The notes under the pieces are model-generated. The model made no database searches. It was not told where the DNA came from and worked only from the letters and a program-made list of their open reading frames with translations. Positions 224-14,006 of a DNA stretch of 21,319 nucleotides are shown one piece after another (the first letter of the stretch is position 1; every line of letters starts with the position of its first letter). Source of the stretch: a virus; the IMG/VR virus record IMGVR_UViG_3300036791_000600, positions 1 through 21,319 of that record; one strand, given 5' to 3'. Made by a program: the position numbers and the translations under genes.

Positions 224-3034
224 TTACGGGGCATCGTAGTAGGTTCTCGCCGCGTTTTGTAATTCTTCCCTATTGCGCCATAACCAATCAGCGCCCCTAA
301 TTGCTGGACCTATCCCTTTCTCCATGCCACGCAAGAGTTTGCCTCCAGGCAATTGTTTTGGATTGCGCCAGTTTTCATATGCTCTTTGACGTAAATCCTC
401 CTCAAAGCTTGGCGGACGTGGACTGAATCGCGGCATCCCCGGCGGTGTTGCATTGTTTTGTTGCTCCACCAATTGCGCCAATTCCGGGCTCAATTCATTG
501 GACGAAGACGCAAGGCGTATGGGTCCGGGTCGCGGGCGTTGCTGAGCTTGTGGGCCGGCTGGCGGGGGTGCGGCGGCGGTCGGCTGCTGTGTTTGCCCGC
601 GCGCGACCTCGCGATTGTAGCGATCCGCCCACATGCCGCGGAACTGTCCGGCGGTGACCTGCTCGACTGGGGTGCGGCGCAATGGATTGTCGCCGGGAAT
701 GTTGCCGCGAATGGCGCTCTTGGCCTTTGCATCGGACCCGTAGAACCGGCGCACGCTCTGCCATGCCGGCTGATCGGCGGGAGCGCGCAGCAGTGCCGGG
801 CCGCCCGCCTGACCTTGCTGGTGGGTCAGGTAGAGCTCGGCCCCGGTCGGATCGCGACCGAGCGTGTTGCGCAAAATCCGGGTGTTATCCTGTGTCTCGC
901 GCTGCAGTGCCGCTTGCTGTGCCGCCGGATCGTTGCGATTGCGCGCATTGAGCCCATATCGGCGTTCTTCCTCGGGACCGAATTGTCCGAGCCCGCGATT
1001 GCTACCAGTCCTGGCACCGGGGTTGCCGCCGCTTTCAATGGCAAACGTGGCGCGTGCGTAGTTCTCCTGCGGGAGCGAGGAAATCCCGCCCGCGGTTGCG
1101 TTGGGGATTGGCATTGGTGGGCGCGGCGCATTGGCAGACTGAATAACAGCGGACCCATCGCGATTGATCGTCAACATCATCGGACCACGACGGGCCGCAT
1201 CCTGGAATTGACGGTTAAAGGCTCCCCATTGTGAACTGTTGACACCAATGCATCCATTGGTGTGCCCATTGGCGGGATGGATTTCGATGCCATTGCGCGG
1301 GCGGCCAAATTTGGCATCGTTGACCGTGTTGCTGCCGGGGCTGTTGCTGTCGGATACCCCCGCGACCGCGCCAATCCGCCGACCAGTAGGTCCGATCGCG
1401 CCCGGATGAATGTAGTAGGTGCCATAGGGCAAGCTGCCGAATTGCCCGCCACCGGTGGCAAAATCGAATTGCTGACCATTGATGGAGAGCTTGCCGCCGT
1501 AACGGAATGGCCGGTCATTCTGGTTGGGTAGTTGGCCAAACCCCGGTGTCGGCGGGGGCGCGGTGGTTGTCATCCCGCCGGGCATTCCTTGCGTGGCTTG
1601 CGGGTTGGGTTGCTGGCTCGCCGGATTGGCGTTTGCCTGTGCGGGGGTTGGAGCAAAACCTGCCCCCGGCGCGCCAACCGTCATTTTGCCGGGAGTGCCC
1701 ACGGTGGCCCCACCCGTAGGTGCGCCCGGCGGTGTTGCCGCCTCGGCCGAAGCTACGCCGGTCGGACGCGGGGTTGCCATTGCCGCCGTTACCGGTGTCG
1801 GTGGTGTGGTGGCGAGCGCCGGCCCGGTCGGGCTCGGGGTTGTTCCCGGACGCGCGACCTGATCCGGCAAGCCGGTCTGCGTGCCGGCGAGCTGCGTCTG
1901 TGGTGTTGTTTGCCCGTATGTCGGCACGCCGCTCGGATTGACGGCAACGCCAGTCTGTAACGGGGATGCATCCGGTCCCGCGCCCGGTTCTGGGCCAATC
2001 TCGCGTGTGCCCCCGCCACCTAACGGGGCCTCTGCACCGGGTTGGGAAGATGGCGTACCCGCCTGCGCGCCCTGACCGCCGAACAAATCCTGAAAAAAGC
2101 GCCCGAAATTGCCCTGGAACAGGTCGCCCAGGGCCTGTCCCTTGCCCGCGCCACCCATGGCAGGCATGCCGCCAGCCCCAACCCCGCCGGTTCCTGCGCC
2201 GCTCGGCGTGCCCGCGCCTGTGTCGCCGTAGCCGTAGCCGCCGCTGGTGTAGCCTTGCGAGGTGTACTGATTGGGATCGGGTGCCGGCGCGGCCGCAGGC
2301 GCGGCCTGCGCCCCAGTTCCGGTTTTATTTCCAGAAGTTTGGGGAGATTGTGGCGAAACTGTGTCAGCGGCGGCGGTCTGGTCGCCGGTTTCGGTCGGAA
2401 ATGGCAATGGTGGGATGGGAAGCTGCGCCGGTTGCTGATCCGGGGTCTGTGCGGCCGGTGGGATGCTGGCTGCGGCTGCAGCGGGGTTCTGTGCGGCTGG
2501 CGGCACGGCGGGCGCGGCAGCAGTCTGCGGGCTCGGGGTCTGGGTCTGACGCGGGTTGAAAAAGCCGGTCCCGGTCAGGTTGGTTTGGCTTTGATCTGTG
2601 CTCGTCGTATCCGGCCCAACCATAGTCAGGGGACGGCTCTGTGTCGGTGTCGGTGGTCCGCCGGCAGCGCCGGCACTGGTCGCCTGCGCCTGCGTTGAGC
2701 CGAGTTGGTTGCTGTCCTTGCCGAGCAGAATGTTGCTGATGTTGTCGAGCAAAGACGGGTCGGTTGATCCGGATTGTTGCCCACCGGGCGCGGTGGTGTC
2801 GGCCGGCGGCGGCGGGCTCGACGCGTTGGCTGCTTGATTGGCCTGGAAAGTCGGGTCGTTGTAGGTGCCAACATCGGTTGCCGGCGTGGTATCGCCGATG
2901 CCCCACGGGGCGCTTTGACTACCCGCACTCCCGGAAAGGCCCTGGCCTGCGAATGCAAACGGATTGCCGGCCCCACCGCCGCCGCCGCCTCCACCACCAC
3001 CCCCGCCACCAGCACCGCCGATCAATCCGCCCAT
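224..3034 (-). CDS. Large virion/ejection protein with L,D-transpeptidase-like and lytic transglycosylase domains
   Basis: The product is 936 residues. A poly-glycine N-terminus (about residues 3-25) is followed by a very long Pro/Thr/Gln/Ala/Gly-rich, probably disordered region to about 505. Residues 510-650 look like a YkuD/DUF2778-type L,D-transpeptidase fold, with H586, H591 and C595 in HPANGHTNGCIGV. Residues 655-790 look like a goose-lysozyme/SLT transglycosylase, with catalytic Glu about 667 in FAIESGGNPG and the following GLGQF motif. The C-terminus is basic. A wall-cutting domain in a giant virion protein is typical of podovirus ejection proteins (T7 gp16-like), which open peptidoglycan during DNA entry. 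The ATG at 3034 was chosen over the one at 3064 because GAGAGGTG lies just upstream and it avoids overlap with the preceding gene. It is the last gene of the late operon. An endolysin role is possible but less likely given the size and disordered region. Confidence 0.85.
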   Translation of the reverse strand: MGGLIGGAGGGGGGGGGGGGGAGNPFAFAGQGLSGSAGSQSAPWGIGDTTPATDVGTYNDPTFQANQAANASSPPPPADTTAPGGQQSGSTDPSLLDNISNILLGKDSNQLGSTQAQATSAGAAGGPPTPTQSRPLTMVGPDTTSTDQSQTNLTGTGFFNPRQTQTPSPQTAAAPAVPPAAQNPAAAAASIPPAAQTPDQQPAQLPIPPLPFPTETGDQTAAADTVSPQSPQTSGNKTGTGAQAAPAAAPAPDPNQYTSQGYTSGGYGYGDTGAGTPSGAGTGGVGAGGMPAMGGAGKGQALGDLFQGNFGRFFQDLFGGQGAQAGTPSSQPGAEAPLGGGGTREIGPEPGAGPDASPLQTGVAVNPSGVPTYGQTTPQTQLAGTQTGLPDQVARPGTTPSPTGPALATTPPTPVTAAMATPRPTGVASAEAATPPGAPTGGATVGTPGKMTVGAPGAGFAPTPAQANANPASQQPNPQATQGMPGGMTTTAPPPTPGFGQLPNQNDRPFRYGGKLSINGQQFDFATGGGQFGSLPYGTYYIHPGAIGPTGRRIGAVAGVSDSNSPGSNTVNDAKFGRPRNGIEIHPANGHTNGCIGVNSSQWGAFNRQFQDAARRGPMMLTINRDGSAVIQSANAPRPPMPIPNATAGGISSLPQENYARATFAIESGGNPGARTGSNRGLGQFGPEEERRYGLNARNRNDPAAQQAALQRETQDNTRILRNTLGRDPTGAELYLTHQQGQAGGPALLRAPADQPAWQSVRRFYGSDAKAKSAIRGNIPGDNPLRRTPVEQVTAGQFRGMWADRYNREVARGQTQQPTAAAPPPAGPQAQQRPRPGPIRLASSSNELSPELAQLVEQQNNATPPGMPRFSPRPPSFEEDLRQRAYENWRNPKQLPGGKLLRGMEKGIGPAIRGADWLWRNREELQNAARTYYDAP

Positions 3035-3044
3035 GGCGCACCTC

Positions 3045-3392
3045 TCACAAGAACCCGCCCGCAAGCCCGGCGACCTGACCGATTGCGCCGATCTGGTTGC
3101 TCTTGGACTGGATCGCGCTGTTCGCCGAGGAGGTGGTTTGGCTCAGGTCCTGGCTCTGTGTCTGGCCAAGTCCCGCCTGGAACTCGGCGGGAATGCCGCC
3201 GGTCAGACTGGGCGCGACCCCAAGGTCCATCGCTTCCGGAGTTGAGCCCGGCATCCCGAGTTGATTGTAACGGTTGGCCATGGCCTGCATCGATGTGCCC
3301 TGGCCGCTGGAAAATGCGCCTGTATCGAACGGCGATAGAAATCCGGCCTGACCGGGTCCGCCAAATCCACCCGCACCGCTGCTGCCGCCCAT
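3045..3392 (-). CDS. Gly/Gln/Ser-rich small virion protein, ejection-type
   Basis: The 115-residue protein starts MGGSSGAGGFGG, has a mixed middle (SMQAMANRYNQLGMPG) and a Gln/Ser-rich segment (GQTQSQDLSQTTSSAN), and ends with a small hydrophobic Gly/Ala/Leu tail (AIGQVAGLAGGFL). No enzyme motif is visible. Its ATG overlaps the stop of the upstream gene as TAATG, so translation is probably coupled. By position, after the gp10-like gene and before the wall-degrading protein, it matches the slot of small ejection proteins such as P22 gp7/gp20, but similarity was not recognised. The hydrophobic tail could help membrane insertion. Confidence 0.75.
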   Translation of the reverse strand: MGGSSGAGGFGGPGQAGFLSPFDTGAFSSGQGTSMQAMANRYNQLGMPGSTPEAMDLGVAPSLTGGIPAEFQAGLGQTQSQDLSQTTSSANSAIQSKSNQIGAIGQVAGLAGGFL

Positions 3393-4582: not shown

Positions 4583-4903
4583 TTACTCCCCGCGATTTCG
4601 CCCTCGGCGCACCTCGCGCGACAGCAGATCGCTGGCTTCCTGGGCAGGGGCGCGGGTGTCGGATGTGCCCATGGGGTCGAACCCGCGCGGGCTGATACGG
4701 TCCATGCCGAGATCGGAACTACCGTTGCGTAATGCGCCTCTTGGGCCGACACCGGGCGCGGTACCGAGCCGCAAAGGACCGTCGAGTGAGCGATCGGACC
4801 TCTGGATGACCTCGTTTTTCAGAAAGTATCCGGTCGGGCTGTTGCGGCTGGTCCCGTCCGTTGTTCGTCCTCGCGGCCATTCGCGTTGGTTCCCGATTGG
4901 CAT
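4583..4903 (-). CDS. Small basic hypothetical protein
   Basis: The 106-residue product is low in hydrophobics and rich in Arg, Gly, Ser and Asp (MPIGNQREWPRGRTTDG, RSDRSLDGPLRL), ending REVRRGRNRGE, so it is probably disordered and may bind nucleic acid. The ATG is preceded by GAGGT at 7 bases. It overlaps the end of the VRR-NUC gene by 85 bases in another frame. It fills the only space between two supported genes and ends 5 bases before the next start, which supports it being real. Function unknown. Confidence 0.6.
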   Translation of the reverse strand: MPIGNQREWPRGRTTDGTSRNSPTGYFLKNEVIQRSDRSLDGPLRLGTAPGVGPRGALRNGSSDLGMDRISPRGFDPMGTSDTRAPAQEASDLLSREVRRGRNRGE

Positions 4904-5295
4904 AGGTTGACCTCGCGGTGCATGATCCTGGCGCTATCGAGGGCGTTGATCACGTCCTCTTGGCTCCTGCACACATACACCCGAATGCCAACCCCCTGCA
5001 ATTTCGAGAACATCTCGCGCTGCGCCGCACTGACCGAATTGGCCCCGACCTTGATCTCGATGCCGATCACCTTGCGCCCGAGATCAAACACCAGGATGTC
5101 GGGCATGCCCTTTTTCAGGCCGGAGGCATACAGCCGGCCGGCGGTGCCCTTGGTGAGCTTGCCCCAGCCGGCGGGAAACGTCGTGTAGATGGTCGGCGGC
5201 AGCAGCACCCAGTCGAGCAATTGCGCCACCGACGCATGCAGCTGGCTTTCCCGCGGGTTATGCGGGAGCGCATGCGGGCGCTGCCGTTTGGTCAA
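4819..5295 (-). CDS. VRR-NUC domain nuclease
   Basis: The 158-residue protein has the PD-(D/E)XK layout of VRR-NUC enzymes: E16 in the first helix (RESQLHASVAQLL), GMPD with D66, then E80 and K82 in IGIEIKVG, and Q92 in the following helix (SAAQREMFSKLQ). Related phage proteins cut branched or structured DNA, for example stalled or recombining forks before packaging. The start is TTG at 5295, overlapping the stop of the preceding tiny ORF as TTGA, with GGAGAG 7 bases upstream; no ATG is placed to encode the first helix. The last 35 residues (SGTNANGREDEQRTG...) are a disordered tail overlapping the next gene. A nuclease inside a structural operon suggests a role in head DNA processing, which is inference. 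Confidence 0.88.
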   Translation of the reverse strand: MTKRQRPHALPHNPRESQLHASVAQLLDWVLLPPTIYTTFPAGWGKLTKGTAGRLYASGLKKGMPDILVFDLGRKVIGIEIKVGANSVSAAQREMFSKLQGVGIRVYVCRSQEDVINALDSARIMHREVNLCQSGTNANGREDEQRTGPAATARPDTF

Positions 5296-5462
5296 CGCCG
5301 CGCTCTCCGTACCGGGCCGGTGCGTGCGCCGGGACGCGGCGAGCGGCCGACGCGGTGGCCGGCACGTTTGCCCCGGTTCCAGTCTGCCGGAAACGCGCCG
5401 TCAGACCAGGGTGCGCGACACACCGGGCCATGGCGGCCCGGCGCTTTGTCACGTTTGGCCAT
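5292..5462 (-). CDS. Micro-ORF f: basic 56-aa protein
   Basis: The product has 56 residues and begins MAKRDKAPGRHGPVCR, with a Trp-containing middle (APWSDGAFPADWNRGKRAG) and an Arg/Gly/Pro tail ending VRRARR. The start is supported by GGAG 7 bases before ATG. The previous ORF's TAA directly abuts this ATG in the same frame, and its own TGA overlaps the TTG start of VRR-NUC. About one quarter of residues are Arg or Lys. A competing frame runs across the region (GTG at 5578 to 5258, 106 codons), so the assignment is not certain. It is the last member of the arginine-rich array. Confidence 0.55.
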   Translation of the reverse strand: MAKRDKAPGRHGPVCRAPWSDGAFPADWNRGKRAGHRVGRSPRPGARTGPVRRARR

Positions 5463-5612
5463 TTACGGACTCCGTCGTCCGCGCCGGCCGCGTCCAACAC
5501 CTTGGCGGTGACCCCGATGTCGGCGAATGCGGGTAGAGGGGCGATGCAGCCGCCCCAGTTTGCCCGCTGGATCAACACGGCTGCGTGGCCCGAGATTGAC
5601 GCCTCTGGGCAT
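5463..5612 (-). CDS. Micro-ORF e: Arg-rich 49-aa protein
   Basis: Starts MPRGVNLGPRSRVDPAGKLG and ends in a dense basic tail (RRHRGHRQGVGRGRRGRRSP). GGAGG lies 6 bases before the ATG, and the ATG overlaps the stop of micro-ORF d as TAATG, so initiation here is well supported. Downstream of the first dozen codons another minus frame reads more like an ordinary protein (LIQRANWGGCIAPLPAFADIG...), beginning at a GTG at 5578 with no Shine-Dalgarno. Either the two frames overlap, or a frameshift joins this start to that frame. The reading given follows the initiation signal. Confidence 0.45.
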   Translation of the reverse strand: MPRGVNLGPRSRVDPAGKLGRLHRPSTRIRRHRGHRQGVGRGRRGRRSP

Positions 5613-5773
5613 TAGAGCCTCCTCGTTCTGCGAAGTGCTGCCCGTTTGTAGAAGGAATTAGGCCGCCATCTCCAACTCGGCGTGCGGAAGTTGCCTTGAC
5701 GCTTGGCCGCGCCCTGCACCTGCCGCCGCATGATGTCGGAAAATTTCGACCCGGCTCCTCTGCTAACGGCCAT
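5612..5773 (-). CDS. Micro-ORF d: basic Trp/Arg-rich 53-aa protein
   Basis: The 53-residue product begins MAVSRGAGSKFSDIMRRQVQ, has an aromatic-basic centre (FRTPSWRWRPNSFYKRAAL) and ends RRTRRL. It has about a dozen Arg and a few Lys, giving a strongly positive protein that could contact DNA. AAGAAGG lies immediately upstream of the ATG, inside the end of micro-ORF c, whose stop it overlaps by 11 bases. The TAA is shared with the next start (TAATG). Of the array it looks most like a small folded protein. Confidence 0.7.
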   Translation of the reverse strand: MAVSRGAGSKFSDIMRRQVQGAAKRQGNFRTPSWRWRPNSFYKRAALRRTRRL

Positions 5774-5834
5774 GCCTTCTTCGCTTGCGGGCTCTGATGC
5801 GGCGGGCGCGGCGGGTTTGTTTGAGACGTGCCAT
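5763..5834 (-). CDS. Micro-ORF c: protamine-like 23-aa peptide
   Basis: The peptide begins MARLKQTRRARRIRARKRR: 11 of 23 residues are Arg and 2 are Lys. Arg is written with five different codons (CGC, CGT, CGA, AGA, AGG), so the bias is not a simple repeat artefact. GGAGGT sits 6 bases before the ATG, and its last bases form the stop of micro-ORF b. It resembles a protamine or the Arg-rich segments of viral nucleoproteins. Function by homology cannot be assigned. Confidence 0.62.
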   Translation of the reverse strand: MARLKQTRRARRIRARKRRRHGR

Positions 5835-5839
5835 CGGAA

Positions 5840-5920
5840 CTACCTCCGCTTGCGACGTCTTGCACGGGCGGCCTTGCGCGATGCAGGAACCTTCACCATG
5901 CGCCTTCTACGCCTTGCCAT
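5840..5920 (-). CDS. Micro-ORF b: protamine-like 26-aa peptide
   Basis: The peptide begins MARRRRRMVKVPASRKAARA and ends RRRKRR: 12 Arg and 3 Lys in 26 residues, with no acidic residue. Arg codons mix AGG, AGA, CGT, CGC and CGG, which points to selection for the amino acid. No Shine-Dalgarno is seen; the ATG lies 9 bases after the stop of micro-ORF a, so reinitiation is the likely mode. It could condense DNA, neutralise charge in the head, or bind RNA; none is shown directly. Confidence 0.6.
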   Translation of the reverse strand: MARRRRRMVKVPASRKAARARRRKRR

Positions 5921-5929
5921 TTGTGGAGG

Positions 5930-5992
5930 TTAGCGGCGAACGCGGCGACCGCGACGGCGGCGACGGTTTGCCTCCAGGATGTGCTGTTCCAT
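5930..5992 (-). CDS. Micro-ORF a: Arg-rich 20-aa peptide
   Basis: First ORF of the array, 66 bases after the gp10-like gene. It starts MEQHILEAN and finishes with a run of nine Arg broken only by Gly and Val. AGGGGAGAAGAG lies 3-14 bases before the ATG, a good ribosome-binding site. It is the only member with acidic residues in a short head before the basic tail. Very short ORFs are weakly supported alone; the case rests on its place in a row of six with the same composition. Confidence 0.55.
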   Translation of the reverse strand: MEQHILEANRRRRRGRRVRR

Positions 5993-6058: not shown

Positions 6059-7693
6059 TCACGCCCCGAACAAGGTCCTGTCTTCAGCCCCCATGTGAAG
6101 CCGCTCGATGATGAAGTCGGGCGAGATGCTTTCCAGATCGACCGCCCCGGCAATACCTGCGCCCTCGGTAGCATAGGGCTCGAAGGCGTATTTGGCACCC
6201 GGCGGCATGGCAAAACCGATGTCCTGACTGCCGCCGGGCACTCCACCGGCATGGGTGACCAGCTTGCCGGTGAACGAGACGCCACCGCCGAACTCGTCAT
6301 GAAATTCGAGGTACAGGCGTTTCCAGTTCTTGATGGTCACCGGTTTCTGCGCCCCGGTGCCGCGCAGAAACTTGGTTGAGAGTTTCTTGATCAATGCGGG
6401 GTCTGGCTGAGCAAATAGTTGATAGAGATTGGTCCCGTCCGTGCCATAGGGCGTGATGATACTGTCCTGCTCATACGCGCCGATATGCGTCAAGGTGAGG
6501 TTCTGCGAGGCAATCGACCAGAATTCGTTGTCGCCGGTCGGGTGCCACATCAACAACAAATTGCGTTTGACGCCCCACGGGTCGGTGAACATGCCGTTGC
6601 ACAGCAAAACCTTGAAGCCGAACATTGTAGCCGGGCACATCGTCGGCAGAAATTGCGATGTATCCAATGTGTTATAGATGTTGGTCGTGCGCGCGCCGAT
6701 TTCGCGCGTCTCTGCACCGCGTATCTCGAAAATTCCCGCCCCGTTGAACATTTGAAAGTATCGGCCGATGCGGCCGACCGGACGCGGGAAGCGGCTTCCC
6801 ACCTGCGGATCGAGATTTTGATAGTTCATGTTGGTGGTGAACGGGCTCGCCGACGTGCCCTGCCCGGCCAGCTGCACGTTGGCAATCATGTCGGTGGAAC
6901 TGTCACCGAACACATACAGATAGCCCGCACTGGCGGCCAGATCATTGAAGACGTATGTCAGCTTGTTGCCGAAGTAGCCGAAAGACCCGCCTCCGTCCGT
7001 GGTGCTGAAGTCCGCGCCATTAGAGGGCGCGGAAAAGCTGATCACGTCCTTGCCAGCAACAAATAACCGGCTTTGGTAGACCTCCATACAATAAATACCC
7101 GGCAATCCAGTCGGCATGGTGTAGATCGGCGGGCCGGGATTGGTCTCTTGCTGATTGGTCAGCCAGTCGGGCGCGGTAGAACCGGGCGGGGAGAGGGTTG
7201 TTCCGTCCCAGGCGTAGAGCCCTCCAGTCGTGGCACCTTGGGGGCTGCCAAAGAGGACACCGCCGGCTTGCCCGGCAACTGAACCGAAGTATTGAGGCCG
7301 CCACACCACTGCGGTGCCCCAATACTGCGGGGCAATGGGGTTCCAAGCAGTGCCGACGTGGACGACGGTCTGAGTGTCGAGATCGACTTGGTCGATGGTT
7401 CCGTCAGAGAGGAACATCCAGCCGTAGCGACCGGGAGGCGGGGCGGCGAATTGGCTTGTGACATCACCGATAAATCCAAAGAAGATGCGTAGGATACTGG
7501 TTCCGGCGGGTGCCGTATAGATAGCCGGCCCGTGTCCCCAACAAGAGCGCAAAGCACCGGGGCCGATTGCGAACAGATTTTCATTCCAAAATTCCTCGTC
7601 GTCATCGATCGAGCCGCGCGGCGATTGCTGGTTCAGCCCTTTCCAGGTGCCAACGGTGTGGATTTCAAACGGGTTGGCGCTTTGGATAGGCAT
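6059..7693 (-). CDS. P22 gp10-like packaged-DNA stabilisation / tail hub protein
   Basis: The 544-residue product is rich in Gly, Thr, Tyr, Phe and Trp, with repeated blade-like strands (GYLYVFGDSSTDMI, YFQMFNGAGIFEI, FGFKVLLCNGMFTDPWG, LLLMWHPTGDNEFWSI) typical of the beta-propeller tail protein family that includes P22 gp10. Those proteins sit under the portal, hold packaged DNA in and connect to the tail tip. The length is near that of the family (about 470-550). It follows the adaptor gene by one base between stop and start. Assignment is by composition, motif style and gene order. Confidence 0.8.
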   Translation of the reverse strand: MPIQSANPFEIHTVGTWKGLNQQSPRGSIDDDEEFWNENLFAIGPGALRSCWGHGPAIYTAPAGTSILRIFFGFIGDVTSQFAAPPPGRYGWMFLSDGTIDQVDLDTQTVVHVGTAWNPIAPQYWGTAVVWRPQYFGSVAGQAGGVLFGSPQGATTGGLYAWDGTTLSPPGSTAPDWLTNQQETNPGPPIYTMPTGLPGIYCMEVYQSRLFVAGKDVISFSAPSNGADFSTTDGGGSFGYFGNKLTYVFNDLAASAGYLYVFGDSSTDMIANVQLAGQGTSASPFTTNMNYQNLDPQVGSRFPRPVGRIGRYFQMFNGAGIFEIRGAETREIGARTTNIYNTLDTSQFLPTMCPATMFGFKVLLCNGMFTDPWGVKRNLLLMWHPTGDNEFWSIASQNLTLTHIGAYEQDSIITPYGTDGTNLYQLFAQPDPALIKKLSTKFLRGTGAQKPVTIKNWKRLYLEFHDEFGGGVSFTGKLVTHAGGVPGGSQDIGFAMPPGAKYAFEPYATEGAGIAGAVDLESISPDFIIERLHMGAEDRTLFGA

Positions 7694-7694
7694 G

Positions 7695-8429
7695 TCAGGC
7701 GGATCGCATTGTCGCGCCGTATACGTTCGTCACCATCTGCGGACACACCACGGCGGCGGCAAACGGCATCTCGGCATTGAAGGCGACGGCCATGGCCTGC
7801 GCGTCCTGTTGCCGTTGTTGTTGCAACATGGCGAGCACTGCCGCCCACCACACAACCGCGTCCGTCCACGGATACGGGATCAGTTCCGGGTCGTTATCCG
7901 TGAGCAGATTTTCAGGAATACATGTGAGATCGACCTCCATCGGCAGCGACTGCGTCGGAATGGGTGCGAGGTAGAGTGAACCGATGGGACCCTCGTTGAA
8001 CTGAGCATACCAGCCGGGTTCGCTAATCGTACCCATGAAAGTCCGGCCATAGATGCGCATCCTCGCCTGAAAATCAGTGAACACAAGCCTGCGCCAAACG
8101 GGTTTCCAGCTGCCGCCGCGAATGGCCCAATTACCCGCCGCGTCCTGTTGCCACTTGCCGCCGATGCCGACAGCGAGCGAGCGGCAAGACAGGATCGAGC
8201 GCACGCCCGGCAAGGCTTGCTGCGCCAGTGAGTTCCAGGCGGCGAACGGGTAGATTTCCTGATCAGGTACGGTTTGAGTGCCCGGAGGAATGACGCGTAG
8301 GCATCCGCTTGCCGCGGCCACGCGTCTGCGACTGCGATTGATGTAGCTGTTCAGGGTTGGATCGCTGAAGAATTGTCCCTGAAGGTCGTTCAGCAACAGT
8401 CTCGTCTCCGACTGATATTGCGCCAACAT
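7695..8429 (-). CDS. Head-tail adaptor protein
   Basis: From ATG at 8429 the product is 244 residues. The N-terminus (SETRLLLNDLQGQFFSDPTLNSYINRSRRRVAAASGC) has the form of phage adaptor proteins that ring the portal: a short helix, then D-x-x-L-x-x-Y-I-N and a basic helix. The centre contains FEARMRIYGRTF-like strands (DFQARMRIYGRTFMG) and the end a long helix (WWAAVLAMLQQQRQQDAQAMAVAF). Only a weak GGTG precedes the ATG. The open frame continues upstream to 8663, but that part is Arg/His-rich shadow of the TIG gene. The start lies inside the TIG gene, an overlap of 167 bases. Confidence 0.78.
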   Translation of the reverse strand: MLAQYQSETRLLLNDLQGQFFSDPTLNSYINRSRRRVAAASGCLRVIPPGTQTVPDQEIYPFAAWNSLAQQALPGVRSILSCRSLAVGIGGKWQQDAAGNWAIRGGSWKPVWRRLVFTDFQARMRIYGRTFMGTISEPGWYAQFNEGPIGSLYLAPIPTQSLPMEVDLTCIPENLLTDNDPELIPYPWTDAVVWWAAVLAMLQQQRQQDAQAMAVAFNAEMPFAAAVVCPQMVTNVYGATMRSA

Positions 8430-9105
8430 CGTGCGGCACCAGAATTGACATTCCGTTGAGTGTAATCTGTGCAACGGTCGCCGTCGATGGTGGGGTCGTC
8501 GGTGTCGCCCCACCCGTGAAAATATTGGAAAAAACAATCGGCACGCCAGCCGGCGGATTGTTTGGAAAACCGGCGTAGGCGGTCGTCGTGGTGAATTGCG
8601 GCCAGTAGCCGCTAGATGCCGGCGTGGTAGCGCTGCCCGTCTTGAATTGCGGCTGCACCACACCGGCCAGAGACGGCGGGACGGGCGCGGGTCCTATCGC
8701 CGGACCCACCAATGGGCCCTTTGCCGGCGGGATAGCTGGAGGCGGAAAAGCGGGTGGGGGCGGGTTGCCAATGAGCGGGGGCGGAATGATTGGCACGAAA
8801 GCGGGAAAGAAGGCGTCCGTCTTGGTCTGCTCGAAGGTAAAGCCGTTGAACATCGTGTTGTTGCCGCCGGGCGTGACAACGGTGACGTCTACGACCTGAT
8901 CAGCGGTAACGAGCGGCGTGGCGCAGGTGATGCTGGTATCGCTGACGACCACGACACTGGTCGCAGCGACTGCGCCAAACGTGACCGACGTTGCGCCAGT
9001 AAAGCCGTTGCCGCCGATGGTCACTGCGGTGGCTGTGTTCAGCAGCCCGTGATTGGGCGTGATGCTGTTGATGTTTGGCGCGGCTTCGGTTTCGGGCTCG
9101 CCCAT
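8263..9105 (-). CDS. IPT/TIG (Ig-like) domain virion protein
   Basis: The 280-residue product contains a TIG domain at about residues 10-93: the pattern NINSITPNHGLLNTATAVTI, GNGFTGATSVTFG, ITCATPLVTADQVVDVTV is characteristic. A Pro-rich spacer (about 95-145, PPPLIGNPPPPAFPPP) and a Thr/Pro/Phe-rich segment follow. Ig-like domains on phage heads and tails often bind carbohydrates at the host surface. ATG at 9105 was chosen: GGAGG is 5 bases upstream and the ATG overlaps the previous stop (TGATG). The last 55 or so residues, where the adaptor gene overlaps, lose this character (QRSNPEQLHQSQSQTRGRG), suggesting the stop codon was once nearer 8429. Confidence 0.78.
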   Translation of the reverse strand: MGEPETEAAPNINSITPNHGLLNTATAVTIGGNGFTGATSVTFGAVAATSVVVVSDTSITCATPLVTADQVVDVTVVTPGGNNTMFNGFTFEQTKTDAFFPAFVPIIPPPLIGNPPPPAFPPPAIPPAKGPLVGPAIGPAPVPPSLAGVVQPQFKTGSATTPASSGYWPQFTTTTAYAGFPNNPPAGVPIVFSNIFTGGATPTTPPSTATVAQITLNGMSILVPHDVGAISVGDETVAERPSGTILQRSNPEQLHQSQSQTRGRGKRMPTRHSSGHSNRT

Positions 9106-12284: not shown

Positions 12285-14006
12285 CTAACCGCGCCGTCGT
12301 CTACCGCCTCCGCGCCCTTGCTGCCGGTTGGGCAGCTGCAGCACGTCGCGCATGGTTTCCTTGGCCTCCTCCTGTTGGGCGGCTTGGGCCTGCTGTTTCT
12401 TGCGCTGGCGCAAGCGGGACAGCAGCAAATCGGCTCCCGGCGGGTGCAGCATATGGATCAGGTCCTCGCTGTCGATCGCCTGGGCGCGGGCGAGGGCAAT
12501 GGCGATCTGGCGATTGTCCTCGGCAAAGGCCGGGCTGGCTGAATGGCTGTCTACCTGGACTTGGAAGTCGTCAGGTATCTGGTGCAGGGTAAATTCGATC
12601 TTGCTGTCGCCGGTCGTGTAGATGTGGGCATCCATGGCCTGCATGACGCGCAGACACAGATAGCCGCTCTCGGCCAACTGCCGTTCGATGCGCGCGGCTT
12701 GATCGATCAGCCGCGGGGTCGAGGTGCGCACCAGGGTTTGCGCGTGCACGCCGGCACGCACGCCGGGCTCGCCCTGGCCGGACATCACCGGGGTAAAACC
12801 GGCCGCCTCGTCAAACAGCTGAAACAGGAACTGTAGTTCCTCCAAATAATTCGGTGGGGGCACATCGAGCAGTTTTTGTGATTTTGCATTTGGGTTGGGG
12901 TCGTTGATAAAGCCGCCCTCGTTGATGATCTTGAAATATTGCTCCTCGGTGATCGACGTGAACCCGCTGAACACCTGCGGCGCGCGCGAGTTTCGTTCCC
13001 AGGCCACTTGATTGTCGCGCATACGGCGGTTGAGGACATCCTGCAGCATCTGCACGTCGGCAATCCAGGAACGGCCCCAAAAATAGCCGGGGGTCGGCTG
13101 CGCCTGCACTTTGACGAACGGGTGGCGGCCGGGGATTTTGCTGATGTTGCGGCGGGGGTCGTCGCCCTCGATGATGATGGGCTCGTCGCCGTAAATGCAC
13201 TGGATGACGGTGTAATCGCCGTCGCGGTCACGGTCCTTGACCCAGAGCTCGCACAGCTTGACGGTCGGGGTCAGCTTGCGGTTTGGCCGCCACGGGGTCG
13301 GTACGGGGAACACGTTGACAATGCCGGCCGCCTCGGAGCGCGGTGAACTGCCGACGTCGCCCAACGGCTGCAGGCCGCCGACAACCATGGCGTGGAAATA
13401 CGAGGGGGTCTCCTCCGCGTCCCGGTCACTGCGCCGGCCGGCCTCGACTTGCTCCATGATTTGCCGATAGCGCTTGTGTCCTTGCAGGATGCTGCGCAAG
13501 CGGCTGATGGTGGGGTAGCTGACGTGGCAGAACGCCTCCTGCTCATCGAGCGACATGGTAGTTTCAGCCAGCACGCCAAAATTCTGCGGGTGCACTTGCC
13601 CGACACTGAAGCCGTAGTCGTCGGTCGGAATGTGTTTGAGAATGGCGCAGCCGTTGATCAGCGACCACACCACGGTTTCGGCAAACGTCACGTCCGAGTC
13701 GGTGTTGCGATAGTCGGCCGAAAGTTTTTCCGAGACCAGCTGGGCGCGTTCCAGCACGCTGTCGTCCTGGCTGGTGTCGTAGACCATGGCAAACCGCACG
13801 TCGGTCGGCTGCATCAGAAAGCCGGCGAGCTTGTCAATGAACGGCTTGGTTTTGTTGTAGATCGCGGCTTTTTGGTCCCAAGTGCCTTGGTAGTAATACT
13901 GCGCGGCGCGGGTGTAGATCATGCCGCGTTCTTCGGAACTGGCCATACATTCGTCAGCCAGTTCCTTGACCCATAATCCCAGGTCCTCGTCAGGAATGCG
14001 CAGCAT
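12285..14006 (-). CDS. Portal protein
   Basis: The 573-residue product matches podovirus-type portals in length and layout: an N-terminal helical/alpha-beta region (WDQKAAIYNKTKPFIDKLAG, FAETVVWSLINGCAILKH), a middle wing (YFHAMVVGGL, VNVFPVPTPWRPN), stem and crown helices (PGYFWGRSWIADVQMLQDVL, NRRMRDNQVAWERNSRAPQV), and a Gln/Arg-rich tail ending GRGGGRRRRG. Twelve copies would form the DNA channel and dock TerL. The ATG lies within the end of the preceding gene (17-base overlap). The basic tail could touch DNA in the channel. Confidence 0.88.
   Translation of the reverse strand: MLRIPDEDLGLWVKELADECMASSEERGMIYTRAAQYYYQGTWDQKAAIYNKTKPFIDKLAGFLMQPTDVRFAMVYDTSQDDSVLERAQLVSEKLSADYRNTDSDVTFAETVVWSLINGCAILKHIPTDDYGFSVGQVHPQNFGVLAETTMSLDEQEAFCHVSYPTISRLRSILQGHKRYRQIMEQVEAGRRSDRDAEETPSYFHAMVVGGLQPLGDVGSSPRSEAAGIVNVFPVPTPWRPNRKLTPTVKLCELWVKDRDRDGDYTVIQCIYGDEPIIIEGDDPRRNISKIPGRHPFVKVQAQPTPGYFWGRSWIADVQMLQDVLNRRMRDNQVAWERNSRAPQVFSGFTSITEEQYFKIINEGGFINDPNPNAKSQKLLDVPPPNYLEELQFLFQLFDEAAGFTPVMSGQGEPGVRAGVHAQTLVRTSTPRLIDQAARIERQLAESGYLCLRVMQAMDAHIYTTGDSKIEFTLHQIPDDFQVQVDSHSASPAFAEDNRQIAIALARAQAIDSEDLIHMLHPPGADLLLSRLRQRKKQQAQAAQQEEAKETMRDVLQLPNRQQGRGGGRRRRG

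Follow-up and report, generated by a model that had tools for sequence, protein, structure and literature searches.

The 21,319-base IMG/VR virus record IMGVR_UViG_3300036791_000600, analyzed here over its full length and referred to as the window, carries a podovirus virion operon on its minus strand. This includes genes for a terminase (16833-14989; PF17289), a portal (14006-12285; a weak match to SU10_portal), a scaffold-like protein assigned by position only (11007-10462), the major capsid protein (MCP; 10447-9410; phrog_9953), an SU10-type adaptor (in 8663-7695), and a gp10-like nozzle or tail hub (6059-7693), as well as a VRR-NUC nuclease (4819-5295; PF08774, E value of 2.5e-07). The nozzle protein has no match in a profile search, and its designation as gp10-like rests on an AlphaFold2 model (mean pLDDT of 62), which in the PDB is most like tail proteins of phages VP1, P22 (gp10), GP4, Pam1, T7, and SU10. 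A preliminary description, made from the sequence alone, placed a cassette of tiny Arg-rich open reading frames (ORFs) between the gp10-like and VRR-NUC genes; it lies downstream of the former and upstream of the latter. Other features of the window include an HNH endonuclease gene (PF13392; 11214-11690) lying in the virion operon between the portal and scaffold-like genes, and a Gly/Arg-rich tail, RQQGRGGGRRRRG, at the portal C terminus (12285-12330), of a kind common to most portals of the window's clade. An ORF at 224-3064 codes for a Gly/Pro/Ala-rich protein of 946 aa, residues 665 to 770 of which match PHROGs including a lytic tail protein, and is perhaps a tail-associated wall hydrolase.

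The cassette is a row of six minus-strand ORFs of 20, 26, 23, 53, 49, and 56 codons spanning 5292-5992, all present as first reported. Peptide A2 (5930-5992; 20 aa, MEQHILEANRRRRRGRRVRR) has an acidic head and an Arg tail and is preceded by the Shine-Dalgarno (SD) site GGGGAG; peptide B (5840-5920; 26 aa, MARRRRRMVKVPASRKAARARRRKRR) has no SD at its first ATG; and peptide C (5763-5834; 23 aa, MARLKQTRRARRIRARKRRRHGR; SD GGAGGT) is the best conserved of the six. The other three each combine a conserved less basic or aromatic block with an Arg-rich tail: peptide D (5612-5773; 53 aa; weak SD) has a conserved aromatic block and an RRTRRL end, peptide E (5463-5612; 49 aa; SD GAGGAGG) a conserved LGPRSRVDPAG head and an Arg/Gly tail, and peptide F (5292-5462; 56 aa; SD GGAG) an APGRxGPVCRxPWSDGAxPxDW head and an SPRPGxRTGPVRxxRR tail. 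Strong SD sites thus precede four of the ORFs (A2, C, E, and F) and not five, as had been counted. The bases upstream of the first ATG of B read CCTCC (5920-5945), complementary to an SD, and B may be coupled to A or start internally at 5899. Successive gaps are 9, 5, -11, -1, and 0 nt (C and D overlapping by 11 nt), within the limit of 9 bases given earlier, and the ORF of peptide F overlaps the VRR-NUC start by 4 nt. Arg and Lys make up 45, 58, and 57% of the first three peptides, in keeping with the 45 to 60% first described, and 28 to 33% of the other three; hydrophobic residues are scarce in peptides A-C. Each peptide of 20 to 56 aa has a net charge of +7 to +15, and the six sum to +77.

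The region is GC-rich with runs of Arg codons, and it could in principle have no feature at the protein level and be a GC-rich repeat, a decayed gene, or an Arg-codon attenuator. However, 1,000 dinucleotide shuffles fail to reproduce the cassette: 4 ORFs in the cassette region have an ATG, an SD of at least 4, and a net charge of at least 25%, compared with an average of 0.06 and at most 2 in the shuffles. Three further ORFs pass the same rule in the rest of the window (both strands), one of which is the portal gene's 3' end, entered at an internal ATG. The reported mixture of CGN and AGR codons is also evident, with AGA and AGG accounting for 21% of Arg codons in the cassette, versus 6% in the large neighboring genes. 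Four columns of the peptide C alignment are Arg in all 61 distinct sequences, and three of these use all six Arg codons and the fourth uses five (CGC 19, AGA 16, AGG 10, CGA 9, CGT 5, and CGG 2 in one such invariant column), as would not be expected of a simple GC-rich repeat. Comparison of nonsynonymous and synonymous change among relatives, proposed at the outset as a check, points to purifying selection, with pN/pS values of 0.22 for B, 0.30 for C, and 0.46 to 0.56 for A2, D, E, and F, at pS values (0.66 to 0.77) that are near saturation for the peptide alignments. The interchange of Arg codons and pN/pS ratios of 0.22 to 0.56 at near-saturated pS therefore indicate selection on the peptides, and these codon-level results leave no room for a simple repeat, for a region that works solely as an RNA element, or for attenuation that depends on particular codons; an Arg-codon attenuator in particular is ruled out by the free interchange of Arg codons.

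A search with the nozzle protein identifies 23 loci, and a search with the nozzle alignment identifies 80 (50 to 90% identity), several of them on contigs of 42 to 43 kb. Of the 79 relatives with a complete nozzle gene, 76 have cassette members behind it according to profiles of A/A2, B, C, D, E, and F, and the contigs of the remaining three stop 0, 53, and 113 nt past it. Among the 68 sequences with at least 1,500 nt downstream (window included), C is present in 60, D in 62, E in 64, and F in 62, with A or A2 in 30 and B in 18. The commonest junction is a 1-nt stop-start overlap (46 of 55 cases for D-E), and alternative orders occur, including D-B-E-F, F-C-B, and B far behind F. In one relative (L018) an HNH endonuclease gene (6942-7370) lies between intact D and E genes, and a KTSC-domain gene (7517-7768) lies between E and F. 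Because the orders vary and foreign genes are inserted between intact units, the micro-ORFs are separate genes; together with the conserved ORF ends, these features rule out a broken or frameshifted single gene, and the insertions between intact ORFs argue also against the lack of a protein-level feature.

Starts, stops, and Arg content, on which the proposal had been staked in advance, are conserved in these relatives. Conservation, codon-level selection, and synteny give strong support to the existence of a genuine Arg-rich micro-gene cassette within the virion operon. At the level of sequence comparison, the six predicted ORFs are shown to be genuine genes under selection, conserved throughout the lineage. 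The gene behind the cassette is less constant: in L011 (7789-8226) it codes for a PDDEXK_15 nuclease (PF24608) versus VRR-NUC at 4819-5295 of the window, an apparent nonorthologous replacement. A further family of Arg-rich micro-ORFs, MARRGRRMVKRHGRKTFPKPRRSKRY, is present in L191 (9898-9978), L008 (6775-6852), L205, and L198, those in the latter two being on the minus strand and adjoining B or the scaffold-like gene, and another basic micro-ORF, MATRKQKHAARRNLRKARRHRRRRK, lies further downstream past the nuclease gene in L012 (7788-7865).

Peptides C and B extend to much more distant kin. The C core is L[RK][QM]TRRA[RK]RIRAR, and the corresponding DNA pattern matches 70 stretches among 2.9 million IMG/VR contigs; all of the matching contigs examined beyond the nozzle list encode virion genes of the window's group or its distant kin. 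In three of these (L112, L124, and L147), with 28 to 29% terminase and ~27% portal identity to the window, a nearly unchanged C lies directly behind the portal and is followed by a second Arg-rich micro-ORF. In L191, L193, L197, and L205, B lies between portal and MCP, and in L196 and L198 it is upstream of MCP; B-pattern matches in L190, L200, and L203 were dismissed as chance. Kept as they are in distant kin, C and B rank with the most highly conserved proteins there, beyond what charge alone needs. A C core this close to fixation suggests a defined partner in addition to bulk charge, with an RNA, the polymerase, the ribosome, or a head protein as candidates. Lateral transfer of C is an alternative account of its spread.

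The main rival to the reading favored below, and one that the preliminary description also offered in the form of RNA-binding regulators, is that the peptides are regulators of the Arg-rich-motif type, expressed late as part of the virion operon, with phage or host RNA, RNA polymerase, or ribosomes as their targets and antitermination or translation control as their effect. A core that is nearly fixed at ~28% terminase identity is as expected for a specific partner, and it is reminiscent of the Arg-rich motifs with which lambda N and HIV Rev bind RNA, though this is a lead only. However, all copies examined belong to structural operons, where they take up two slots next to head or tail genes, there are several peptide families per phage, and the 10- to 16-aa versions in a sister clade keep mainly charge. 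Regulation is considered a less likely role, but a live one.

The sister clade was found in an MCP profile search, which yields mainly phages like those of GenBank records MW202753 and MW202825 (Manatee Spring), in which GC lies for the most part between 0.37 and 0.56. The set comprises 62 loci with both portal and MCP genes, with L215-L217 being nearer to the C-bearing kin. Strongly basic micro-ORFs of 10 to 22 codons lie between portal and MCP in 50 of the 62, mostly paired and within ~360 nt of the portal gene, as illustrated by MRKAHKKSRKSKR with MARKARKGRKARK, and by MRKAYKKTRKTRR with MARAKRKGRKARK in MW202753; some of the 12 loci without such ORFs have weaker versions, such as MYGMKRDMMKAMAKRGRKARR. 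The density of basic micro-ORFs in this post-portal place is 56 times that elsewhere, and the enrichment in the cassette of the window's clade is 105-fold. The pair sites in MW202753 (L025; about 4758-4920) and MW202825 (L027; about 8277-8440) are both unannotated as genes, and at the former the GenBank annotation contains only the minus-strand hypothetical coding sequences UOF81572.1 and UOF81573.1.

Synonymous codons vary at fixed positions in the sister clade too, but less than in the window's clade, and Lys replaces Arg in the AT-richer genomes. This exchange with base composition indicates that charge is selected and that GC content is not the cause. Chance or a GC artifact is thus ruled out by the shuffles, the Arg codon interchange, and the use of Lys for Arg in AT-rich relatives, and an origin of the cassette in a repeat, a decayed gene, or an attenuator is hardly credible.

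Database searches place the peptides outside described families. None matches Pfam, PHROGs, or NCBIfam (Pfam and PHROGs at an E value of ≤10, with low sensitivity for 20-aa peptides), and in the PDB there is no match for C or B and only implausible ones for F. Among cultured phages, with the low-complexity filter on, there is nothing for peptide E and only weak matches for F, and the cultured phages distantly related by MCP, namely Mx8, Mx9, BUCT555, ppBjS10J-1, and Mwe-JY13 have no comparable micro-ORF cluster. A profile search of GTDB genomes reveals no relative of the nozzle protein, and a Rhodopila MAG contig with the E pattern has neither a cassette nor a virion protein of the group and is attributed to chance. 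No description of such genes was found in the open-licence literature, and we know of no virion-associated basic peptides of this kind in tailed phages.

The favored reading, to which we assign a probability of roughly one-half, is that the cassette codes for late, virion-associated DNA-binding peptides, or "phage protamines," similar to the J and mu peptides of other viruses. Translation of the six micro-genes would be coupled along this block within the virion-assembly operon, and the cationic peptides would bind genome DNA during or after packaging and probably be carried in the particle, some of them held by nonbasic anchors (the acidic head of A2, the aromatic block of D, and the heads of E and F), with a mode of action like that of the phiX174 J peptide or adenovirus peptide mu. 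Late expression, presence in the virion, and DNA as the target are what we infer from the genes, every examined copy of which lies within the structural module. This protamine-like reading is the best candidate for two reasons: the genes are confined to the head-tail module, where they occupy two different slots, and AT-richer kin use Lys in place of Arg. The anchor-plus-tail plan of A2, D, E, and F, the scarcity of hydrophobic residues in A-C, and the Gly/Arg tail of the portal are counted as support. If each peptide is assumed to be present at ~360 copies, the copy number of a T4 internal protein, a summed charge of +77 amounts to ~28,000 charges, or roughly one for every three of the ~85,000 phosphates in a 42.5-kb genome. 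Of the preliminary interpretation, the Arg-rich micro-gene cassette itself stands, and the protamine-like, head-internal part remains the best candidate, drawn from gene place and Arg/Lys exchange. Counting against a DNA-binding role are the fixed C core, which exceeds charge needs, the lack of such genes in the cultured Mx8-like relatives checked, and the finding that in motor-packaging tailed phages as a class, capsid charge is not scaled with genome size (PMC7096446).

The same gene positions, behind the nozzle or among the portal, scaffold, and MCP genes, and the conserved nonbasic anchors in D, E, and F would also suit assembly cofactors binding nucleic acid or head proteins (scaffold, portal, or terminase) during morphogenesis, or an injected, nucleoid-acting cargo like the T4 internal proteins; searches gave no homology to internal proteins, and we regard such roles as quite unlikely. 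Short cationic phage peptides with an outer-membrane-disrupting role are known (PMC9636201), and the cassette could code for lysis peptides of this "disruptin" type. However, the few hydrophobic residues in A, B, and C speak against membrane activity, the amidase gene does not adjoin the cassette in one relative, and there are six different peptides per phage, making this highly improbable.

The prevailing view is that the DNA inside tailed phages is largely naked, its charge balanced by polyamines and metal ions. Conserved peptide counter-ions, if true, would be a different solution, bearing on how packaging pressure is managed, and the DNA-binding role favored here would be a variant of virion-associated basic peptides that is new in this virus class. 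More tentatively, a whole lineage of motor-packaging tailed phages may possess dedicated phage protamines, separately translated cationic peptides of 10 to 56 residues that coat or condense the packaged genome and have some of the shortest conserved genes among viral proteins. The cassette genes are too small for the size cut of gene callers, and routine proteomics would miss their products, since peptides rich in Arg and Lys are destroyed by trypsin. The cassette is a concrete, testable example of functional protein genes of 10 to 26 codons.

Several known systems invite comparison. Arg-rich-motif peptides of the lambda N type have a short Arg-rich core with fixed residues, as does peptide C, but lambda N is an early regulator, whereas the cassette genes lie in a structural operon and not with early regulatory genes, and there are several families per phage. 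The T4 internal proteins IPI-IPIII, present at ~360 copies in the head (PMC9026906), are comparable as small basic proteins of a tailed phage. However, they are folded proteins of 8 to 20 kDa that are injected and have a capsid-targeting sequence cleaved off by the prohead protease, whereas the cassette peptides have 10 to 56 residues, among which no shared N-terminal targeting signal is seen by eye. Adenovirus mu (protein X), with 19 residues and 100 to 300 copies per virion, binds and condenses dsDNA (PMC7998265) and is a short Arg-rich peptide like those predicted from the cassette; mu is released by proteolysis of a longer precursor, whereas each cassette peptide has its own conserved start and stop. 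The Microviridae J protein coats the inside of the capsid and has a part in packaging the DNA (PMC11945456), and J of phiX174 and VP8 of gokushoviruses are, like the cassette peptides, small, basic, and encoded by their own gene among virion genes. No sequence homology between J and the cassette peptides is detected (Pfam and PHROGs at an E value of ≤10, with low sensitivity at 20 aa), and whereas J belongs to single-stranded DNA T=1 viruses with one peptide each, the cassette belongs to a tailed double-stranded DNA phage and codes for up to six.
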